DNA from: a virus
IMG/VR virus record: IMGVR_UViG_3300043434_000210
Coordinates: 1 to 64,000 of that record
DNA length: 64,000 nucleotides
Reading direction: 5' to 3' (one strand)
Below the pieces are notes generated by a model. The model had not been told where the DNA came from. It saw only the letters and a list, made by a program, of their open reading frames with translations, and did no database searches. Made by a program: the position numbers and the translations under genes. Of the stretch, positions 14,061-16,601 are shown piece by piece. Position 1 is the stretch's first letter; each line of letters starts with the position of its first letter.

Positions 14061-15482
14061 ATGTTAAGGTTAATAGATAGATATCGTGAGCTCAGAGAGC
14101 ACACAGGGAACGACAGGCCTATGTCTAACCCACGTTTTGTATCTGCCATGCGTGACGAGATACGCACTAACTTGGCAGGCGGTCCTCATGCTTGGCTCAA
14201 GAATCGTGCACCATCAATGTATAGATATGGTGATGTGCGTGAGCAGTTGGAGTATGGGTTCAATGGTCATGTGGGTAGAATGACTGAGTGGGTGCATCAG
14301 CAGAGAGCCAATCGCAAAGTGTTCGGTGGGTTCATGGGCGATGCGATACGCCAAGGGGATTCAGACAGGGCGTTGGCGTTACTCAATGACCACACCAGTA
14401 TCCGTGACGGCTCACGTGTTGATTGGACAGACCTGCTCAATGATAAGTTCACAGGCTACTACCACTCATGCGAGGACTGCAACACCATCACGAGTGAAGA
14501 CGATGGTAGCACCACCAGCTACGACAATTGGGTGTGTCAGGACTGTCTTGACAACAACTACAGATGGTCAGACCGAGCTGATGGATACGTGACCAATGAT
14601 GACTACGAAGATGAAGAGGAGGAGGACGAAGACAACGGCGTCATCGGTAGTTACCACCACAGTAAGCGTCATGTGTGCCACATACCTAGCAAGTATGACC
14701 ACATAGATAAGCCTGCCGTTCTGCTTGGGCTTGAGCTAGAGATGGAGTGTAGCGACAGTTATACCCGTAGCGACAAGGCTCAAGAACTGTATGACAAGAT
14801 ACACAAATACAACGTCATCAATGGCAGGTCATATCCATACGCGTTCTTTGAGGAGGACGGCTCGCTTAACTATGGCTTCGAGATGGTGACTAGCTACACA
14901 GGTCTTGATGTCCATGCCGAGCAGTTGTTGGTGTTCAAGGATAACCCTGTGCGTGGGCTACGCAGTCACGACACTAGCAGTTGTGGTCTACACGTTCACG
15001 TCAGTCGTGCAGGTATGACGACATTCCATGCGTGTAAGTTGGCGTTCTTCATTCACGATAGCGGTAACCAACGCTTATTGAGAGCCGTAGCACGTAGGTC
15101 TAACAGTCGCCATGCCAAGATGGTCAACAAGAAAGCGGATTCACAATGGATACGCAATGCCAAGGTTGATGGTATCCAACGCTTGAATGACGACAGGTAT
15201 GAGGCGGTCAACTTTCAGAATGGCAACACCGTTGAGTTCCGTCTGTTCAAGGGCACGCTACGCTACGAGTCAATCATGGCGTGCTTGGAGTTCTCATACA
15301 TCACATGGTTCTTCGCTCGTGATATGGGTGTGACTGAGCTGACCGAGGATAAGTTCCTTGAGTATATCTGTCAGCCAAGCAAGCTCAAGCACACTAAGTT
15401 CTTGCGTGACTACTTGCGGTCTAAGAACTTCAGCCTACCTATCAAGGACAGACAACCCAAGCAAGATGCAGTTGAAGTCTAA
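14061..15482 (+). CDS. Amidoligase-like enzyme with N-terminal zinc ribbon
   Basis: 473 residues. Residues 1-130 are an unassigned helical region; C137-x2-C140 and C159-x2-C162 form a zinc-ribbon-like site; residues 180-192 are an acidic linker. From about 220 the sequence matches the glutamine-synthetase-fold amidoligase (COOH-NH2 ligase) family: LLGLELEME (first acidic metal/ATP site), EEDGSLNYGFEMVT (264-277), SSCGLHVHVS (306-315) and VNFQNGNTVEFRLFKGT (383-399). These ligases join a carboxylate to an amine using ATP. The next gene is a class II glutamine amidotransferase, which could supply ammonia, so the pair may amidate a protein or small molecule. Related phage pairs were described in the amidoligase literature (Iyer, Aravind and colleagues, from memory). 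Substrate unknown. Confidence 0.75.
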   Translation: MLRLIDRYRELREHTGNDRPMSNPRFVSAMRDEIRTNLAGGPHAWLKNRAPSMYRYGDVREQLEYGFNGHVGRMTEWVHQQRANRKVFGGFMGDAIRQGDSDRALALLNDHTSIRDGSRVDWTDLLNDKFTGYYHSCEDCNTITSEDDGSTTSYDNWVCQDCLDNNYRWSDRADGYVTNDDYEDEEEEDEDNGVIGSYHHSKRHVCHIPSKYDHIDKPAVLLGLELEMECSDSYTRSDKAQELYDKIHKYNVINGRSYPYAFFEEDGSLNYGFEMVTSYTGLDVHAEQLLVFKDNPVRGLRSHDTSSCGLHVHVSRAGMTTFHACKLAFFIHDSGNQRLLRAVARRSNSRHAKMVNKKADSQWIRNAKVDGIQRLNDDRYEAVNFQNGNTVEFRLFKGTLRYESIMACLEFSYITWFFARDMGVTELTEDKFLEYICQPSKLKHTKFLRDYLRSKNFSLPIKDRQPKQDAVEV

Positions 15483-15483
15483 C

Positions 15484-15499
15484 GGGGAGGTTTCTCCCC
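15484..15499 (+). repeat. Palindromic stem-loop element, copy 7
   Basis: GGGGAG-GTTT-CTCCCC then AA, starting two bases after the amidoligase stop and 35 bases before the amidotransferase start. A hairpin here could set the relative amounts of the two enzymes. Confidence 0.85.
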
Positions 15500-15506
15500 A
15501 ACACGT

Positions 15507-15529
15507 TCTCACAAACAAACGAAAGGAAA
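15507..15529 (+). promoter_or_regulatory. Extended ribosome-binding leader motif
   Basis: A 23-base block whose core is ACAAACAAACGAAAGGAA is identical to the one at 21694-21716. Related versions precede the starts at 14061, 18918 and 31814. It joins an unstructured A/C-rich stretch to an AAAGGA Shine-Dalgarno. Confidence 0.7.
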
Positions 15530-15533
15530 TACT

Positions 15534-16601
15534 ATGTGCTTATTAGTTACACAACCTGCTAACGCCCCTGCTCTCACAGACGCATGGCTCTCTGACTTCT
15601 ACTCAGCTAACGCTGACGGCGTGGGTGTGATGTATGCCCAAGACGGCGAGCTTGTCGTTGAGAAGATACTGCCTGTTGATGAGAAGGACTTCATTCACTT
15701 CTACCGCAACCACATTGAGGGTAAGGAATGTGCGTTCCACCTACGCATGAAGACGCATGGCAATATTGACATGGAGAACTGCCACCCATACGAGGTGTTG
15801 AATCATAGCGAGCATGGCATCAGCTTATGGCTCATGCACAACGGCGTGCTGTCTACGGGTAATGACGCTGACACTACTAAGTCAGACACATGGCACTACA
15901 TTCGTGACTACCTCCGCCCTATGCTGACTGACAACCCTGAGTTTGCGTTTCACCCTGCGTTCGCAGACATTGTCGGTAGCCACATCGGTAGCAGTAACAA
16001 GTTCGTGCTGATGGACAACAACGGCAGACAAGTCACAGTCAACGAAGATGCAGGCGTCTATTGGGGTGGGCTATGGTTATCCAATACCTACGCATGGTCA
16101 GCAAGTAAGTCAGCTACCAAGGACTTCAACCCTGACTACGAGATCGCAGTTGAGCAGGTCAATGAGACGCCGACCAAGTATACGTATTCATACAAAGGCG
16201 GTTATGGGTATGGCACGTATGGCAAGGGGTATGGCTACTCAGGCACATGGGACAACGATGACTACTATGACGACCCTGTCGGTGGCTACGTTACATCTAA
16301 GGTAGGTCAGAACTACGCTGATGAGATAGCGGTGCTTGAGATGGAGGTTGATGATGTCAGCACGCAGTTTGGTATCGCAGGTATGACACGTGCTGAACGA
16401 TTCAGTCGCCGTCAGATATGGAACTTCATTGATAAGTTTGGCTTTGACTCATGGCTTGACGTTGCATATATGTTGATTGATACGGACATTGATGAGGACG
16501 CATACATCAAGCTGATGTCTGACTTTGCGTATGCACGTGAGATGTTTCCGTTCCTGATTAAAGAAGAGCAGAAGCTTGCTCGTGGTGAGTGGTTGAACTA
16601 A
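15534..16601 (+). CDS. Class II glutamine amidotransferase-like protein
   Basis: 355 residues. The start codon is followed directly by Cys (MCLLV), so methionine removal would expose the N-terminal nucleophile of class II amidotransferases. Supporting motifs are FHLRMKTHGN (residues 68-77, compare HTRWATHG in GlmS), ENCHPY (81-86) and LMHNGVLS (100-107) with Asn-Gly as the oxyanion-hole pair. The Ntn-hydrolase domain releases ammonia from glutamine. Residues about 205-245 are a Tyr/Gly-rich low-complexity linker (GGYGYGTYGKGYGYSG), and the C-terminal 100 residues are an acidic helical domain I do not recognise. It has no synthetase domain of its own; the amidoligase upstream is the natural partner. 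Confidence 0.8.
   Translation: MCLLVTQPANAPALTDAWLSDFYSANADGVGVMYAQDGELVVEKILPVDEKDFIHFYRNHIEGKECAFHLRMKTHGNIDMENCHPYEVLNHSEHGISLWLMHNGVLSTGNDADTTKSDTWHYIRDYLRPMLTDNPEFAFHPAFADIVGSHIGSSNKFVLMDNNGRQVTVNEDAGVYWGGLWLSNTYAWSASKSATKDFNPDYEIAVEQVNETPTKYTYSYKGGYGYGTYGKGYGYSGTWDNDDYYDDPVGGYVTSKVGQNYADEIAVLEMEVDDVSTQFGIAGMTRAERFSRRQIWNFIDKFGFDSWLDVAYMLIDTDIDEDAYIKLMSDFAYAREMFPFLIKEEQKLARGEWLN

Follow-up and report, generated by a model that had tools for sequence, protein, structure and literature searches.

Phages that encode an amidoligase next to a class II glutamine amidotransferase have been known since 2009, when Iyer et al. described such neighbouring genes, and examples include LUZ24-like phages, Marvin and the OM43 phages. 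The first-pass annotation was thus right in noting that phage surveys had met such pairs. The system of phiEco32 has been linked with cell-wall modification and superinfection exclusion, a role that later papers attribute to Iyer et al. 2009, and that of Marvin with secondary metabolites and phage-host interaction (PMC10580990, PMC11318856). The passages of these two papers considered here report no test of either role, and in the literature examined phage pairs of this kind have been annotated for more than 10 years without a tested function.

The window analysed here is a stretch of 64,000 nucleotides that makes up most of a 67,058-base IMG/VR phage record (IMGVR_UViG_3300043434_000210). Packaging, portal and tail genes share one strand, opposite to the replication genes. 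The early rightward region opens with two ORFs, both located where they had initially been placed (Table 1), each with an AAGGA Shine-Dalgarno-like stretch directly 5' of its ATG. Pfam and PHROG scans of their neighbours in the window detected no ATP-grasp, GGCT/cyclotransferase or second ligase gene, and Pfam scans of the neighbourhood detected no ergothioneine-pathway genes (egtB, D or E).

Table 1. Coordinates of the gene pair, its predicted domains and the early-region palindromes in the window
Feature	Position	Strand	Basis or remark
Amidoligase gene, PF12224 GS/GCS-fold COOH-NH2 ligase, 473 aa	14061-15482	+	Pfam, PHROG, AlphaFold2 and Foldseek
Zinc-ribbon-like CxxC...CxxC, residues 137-162	14469-14546	+	Cysteine conservation; pLDDT about 95
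Acidic linker, residues 180-193	14598-14639	+	Sequence; pLDDT falls to about 61
Ligase domain, residues 219-436, GxExE/DGS/GxHxH/ExRxF motifs	14715-15368	+	Motif residues mostly 84-85/85
Class II (Ntn) glutamine amidotransferase gene, 355 aa	15534-16601	+	GlmS profile match; Foldseek GlmS/PurF/EgtC
Predicted catalytic Cys2 codon	15537-15539	+	Met-Cys start in 121/121 homologues with a called start
Ntn glutaminase domain, residues 1-211	15534-16166	+	pLDDT mostly 93-98
Gly/Tyr-rich linker, residues 212-260	16167-16313	+	pLDDT <50 at 220-259; low conservation
C-terminal helical domain, residues 261-349	16314-16580	+	pLDDT mostly 88-97; moderate conservation
Palindrome GGGGAG-N4-CTCCCC, start positions	11578, 12052 (1 mismatch), 12575, 13001, 13553, 13990, 15484, 17179
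Palindrome GGGGAG-N4-CTCCCC	13990-14005		55 bp 5' of the amidoligase ATG
Palindrome GGGGAG-N4-CTCCCC	15484-15499		Between the genes of the pair, 34 bp 5' of the amidotransferase ATG

Two enzymes at the start of the early region

The product of the first ORF is a GS/GCS-fold amidoligase according to its sequence and model, with a predicted ligase activity. It scores 30.7 bits against Pfam Amidoligase_2 (PF12224), above the cut-off of 22, and matches PHROG 2443 ('amidoligase enzyme') at 7e-12. The motifs that the first-pass annotation quoted for the two proteins were found in them and are largely conserved. In a ligase alignment of 85 rows, G223, E225, E227, E274, G309, H311, R346, E392, R394 and F396 are found in 85/85 sequences, and D266, H313, N384 and T390 in 84/85. 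The zinc ribbon and the acidic linker proposed at the same time are also borne out, the ribbon cysteines being conserved as well (C137 in 72/85 sequences, C140 and C159 in 83/85, C162 in 85/85).

AlphaFold2 models of both proteins were built from alignments of the window sequences with the viral-locus homologues. The model of the ligase is confident (mean pLDDT 88.1) and contains the GS-type sheet with paired Glu residues that had been set beforehand as a test, strand 222-230 carrying both E225 and E227. Its best match in Foldseek searches was YbdK (E 3e-5, with low TM-scores), alongside glutamine synthetases, gamma-glutamylmethylamide synthetase (GmaS), glutamate-cysteine ligase and the Pup ligase PafA. 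Whole-chain TM-scores are low for both proteins, probably because each of them carries extra domains.

The second gene product is a divergent class II amidotransferase, a predicted identity that we accept on profile, fold and residues despite a Pfam GATase_4 (PF13230) score of 16.5 bits, below the cut-off of 23. A profile built from seven amidotransferase sequences retrieved the GlmS glutaminase at 4e-9, and the AlphaFold2 model (mean pLDDT 87.6, confident) matched GlmS (1e-6), PurF and EgtC, with GlmS and PurF better than EgtC. Residues N26, G29, G31, H69, R71, T74, H84, P85, H102, N103, G104, D118 and T119 are present in 79/79 sequences. They include the glutamine-site residues R71 and N103-G104, which align to GlmS, and D118, which we take from family knowledge to be the glutamine-site Asp.

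The initial assignment to class II called for an N-terminal Cys2 in homologues, and Met1-Cys2 is what all those with a called start have (Table 1). In the window itself, there is no in-frame start codon upstream of 15534, and Cys2 is therefore N-terminal. The sole apparent exception is a homologue whose frame opens with ATT-TGT (locus L082, position 7784); its sequence suggests an ATT start, with Cys still at position 2. In contrast with these assignments, the proposal that the Gly/Tyr-rich linker carries the substrate is weakened, as this segment is disordered in the model and poorly conserved. The part that follows it is a separate, confidently predicted helical domain.

Several other features of the window were recorded. 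The GGGGAG-N4-CTCCCC palindrome occurs in seven exact copies and one with a single mismatch, all in the early region, while shuffled sequence contains at most four copies even at up to two mismatches. Some copies lie inside ORFs and are read as GEVSPQ. The relatives of this phage show the same layout with other half-sites, for about twenty stems in all (one of those listed is masked sequence), and the spacers are seen in either orientation (GTTT 31, AAAC 26). This suggests a lineage-specific DNA dyad such as an operator and disfavours a stranded RNA hairpin. We also rejected promoters for a virion RNA polymerase, given the spacer orientations and the 2875-residue protein encoded at 35111-43738, for which no sequence relative was found in the PDB. 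As the palindromes are also present in phages devoid of the pair, they are a separate matter. The same 2875-residue protein has C-terminal PHROG matches of unknown function and a TLAHEITGHLG stretch that resembles a metallopeptidase site. The gene at 20046-21218, just downstream of an AAA+ ATPase gene (18918-20036), has PHROG 1314 ('HNH endonuclease') as its top match, whereas Pfam assigns DUF2201 putative metallopeptidase and VWA-like domains; its product carries HENLH (HExxH).

Distribution of the pair in phages and bacterial mobile elements

Wherever both genes were found in a viral locus (151 loci), as in the window, the amidotransferase gene follows the ligase gene on the same strand and is adjacent to it, with an intergenic spacing between -100 and +300 bp in 146 loci and within 360 bp in the rest. 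The two genes thus do form a pair, as first proposed. There is no universal third partner among the loci, and the only candidates are ATP-grasp-like genes found downstream of the amidotransferase gene in 17 of them (L091, L020, L025 and 14 others). A RimK-like gene in another locus, L179, resembles them.

Among 15 close relatives of the phage, selected for terminases 77-84% identical and at least 7.5 kb of upstream sequence, both genes are found in five, neither in ten and a single gene in none, as determined by tblastn, with which copies more than 10 kb away or too diverged could be missed. Evolutionary distances correlate at 0.87 between the two genes of the pair, against 0.49 and 0.62 with the terminase, and the pair is far more diverged (0.46/0.38) than the terminase (0.16) among phages whose terminases are close. 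The both-or-neither pattern and the coupled distances imply that the two genes are exchanged together and do not belong to the core genome. It is therefore an accessory cassette in phages.

A scan of one bacterial genome per species collected 16 loci, with ligase matches in 15 and amidotransferase matches in 16. The bacterial copies ride on non-viral integrative or mobilizable elements with an integrase, a relaxase or a coupling protein. Three copies in Polynucleobacter lie near a tyrosine integrase and a relaxase, one of them also with a coupling protein, and in two of the three SIR2-HerA is found directly downstream of the pair. GajA/GajB (Gabija) and an AbiD-like gene are near a Collinsella copy, and a PDC-S06 candidate and a relaxase near an Atopobiaceae copy. 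An Eggerthellaceae copy has as neighbours a relaxase, an HNH gene and an ATPase of the AAA_15 family similar to AriA/PtuA. AbiE genes accompany two copies in Adlercreutzia, while a Victivallis copy is found with an integrase and a gene for type IV restriction. A second Eggerthellaceae copy has a type III methyltransferase gene some kilobases away, which we counted as weak. In an Atopobiaceae element (L181), the ligase and amidotransferase matches fall within a single open frame of 681 codons (5173-7218), which may represent either a fused gene or an overlap that was not resolved.

Defence genes thus occur near the pair in about 8/15 bacterial loci, a count made without a baseline for mobile elements. 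Nor was it blind, since genes were chosen for the PADLOC scan by their defence-like look and the remaining loci were scanned less fully. Mobile elements often carry defence genes, and at an assumed rate of 30-40% a proportion of 7/13 would be unsurprising (P 0.06-0.23). No PADLOC model matched the amidoligase or the amidotransferase. The pair is rare in host genomes, with 3/186 in the Polynucleobacter genus set and 8/398 in the Coriobacteriia set. The integrase of the Polynucleobacter element is found in three genomes only, the other matches being about 40-46% identical and presumably XerC-like.

Possible functions of the pair

We propose that the pair is a glutamine-fed, amide-forming enzyme acting on a host-side substrate and carried as an accessory cassette for conflicts between mobile elements, a reading to which we give a probability of roughly 45%. 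Based on the two families, the ligase would activate a carboxylate with ATP, and the amidotransferase would open glutamine via Cys2 and pass the ammonia on to yield a carboxamide. In GlmS, PurF and AsnB, ammonia from a glutaminase is likewise fed to other synthase domains. The distribution of the pair suggests that phages and bacterial integrative elements may deploy it against rival mobile elements, for superinfection exclusion or defence. The families and folds, the invariant catalytic residues, the strict adjacency, the both-or-neither spread and the defence-gene neighbours are consistent with our proposal as a whole. If an accessory cassette has this role, its substrate is probably a host-side molecule, such as an envelope component, a protein or a small molecule, rather than phage DNA or a component of the virion.

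The chemistry might nevertheless be of another type. EgtA and EgtC show that these two folds can build and trim gamma-glutamyl bonds. Similarly, the ligase could link an amine to glutamate or to a different acid and its Ntn partner could trim or swap the acyl group, with a short peptide tag or a small molecule as the product. Ammonia transfer and gamma-glutamyl hydrolysis are not distinguishable from these folds, with EgtC among the matches of the amidotransferase and the glutamate-cysteine ligase-like YbdK as the best match of the ligase. The ATP-grasp-like genes of the 17 loci recall two-ligase pathways of the glutathione type, and a gamma-glutamyl cyclotransferase-like gene is present in the StenR_269 cluster. 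However, neither was detected near the pair in the window, and the amidotransferase fold is closer to GlmS and PurF than to EgtC. We consider such gamma-glutamyl chemistry possible but rather unlikely.

Whatever the bond formed, the pair could serve the phage in other ways than conflict. It might shift the nitrogen or amino acid pools of the host toward phage growth, as suggested for Phage-ZRK32, and a growth effect has been reported for a phage carrying such genes (PMC10945688). The kinship of the ligase fold with glutamine synthetase and GmaS would fit, but the both-or-neither pattern, the rarity in host genomes and the defence-rich setting agree better with conflict than with housekeeping metabolism, making a metabolic helper unlikely. 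Even less probable is DNA or virion modification, with the amide formed on a modified phage base, a capsid protein or a tail protein. Class II amidotransferase domains do occur in phage proteins for 7-deazaguanine DNA modification (a match to Vid5 was obtained), yet the scans of window proteins revealed no enzyme for base modification, and integrative elements with no virion genes in view also carry the pair.

The conflict hypothesis can be taken further. The pair would then be an undescribed system for anti-phage defence or superinfection exclusion, shared by phages and bacterial integrative or mobilizable elements. Its action would be to amidate, in a glutamine-dependent manner, a host molecule required by invading phages. 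We hold this more specific version to be speculative. Nevertheless, the defence-side bacterial copies provide a concrete hypothesis for the purpose of the pair that is cheaply testable with laboratory phage panels. If it is true, amide chemistry would be an added means by which mobile elements exclude their rivals.

Comparison with known systems

The window pair resembles the GlmS and PurF glutaminase domains in its Ntn fold, N-terminal Cys and Arg/Asn-Gly/Asp glutamine-site pattern, but its partner is a separately encoded GS-fold ligase. It shares with EgtA-EgtC of ergothioneine synthesis the combination of a GCS-type ligase and a class II Ntn protein; EgtC, however, hydrolyses a gamma-glutamyl bond, and the other genes of that pathway were not detected around the pair.

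As in the phage systems of Iyer et al. 2009, a survey compared here via papers that cite it, genes of the two enzyme families lie side by side in the early region of a phage. UFV-P2 (PMC3890496) and other LUZ24-like phages, as well as StenR_269, also encode the two enzymes close together, but as part of larger clusters that include ATP-grasp, COOH-NH2 ligase and AIG2/GGCT genes. The window harbours a minimal pair in comparison, with the ribbon, the acidic linker and the helical C-terminal domain as additions. In the OM43 phages MEP401 and MEP402, the amidoligase gene adjoins the amidotransferase gene at the genome's early end, and the window proteins are about 20-30% identical to theirs. The passages on these phages considered here (PMC10580990) make no claim about bacterial mobile elements. 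What is new here is the presence of bacterial copies of the pair on such elements, often beside defence genes.
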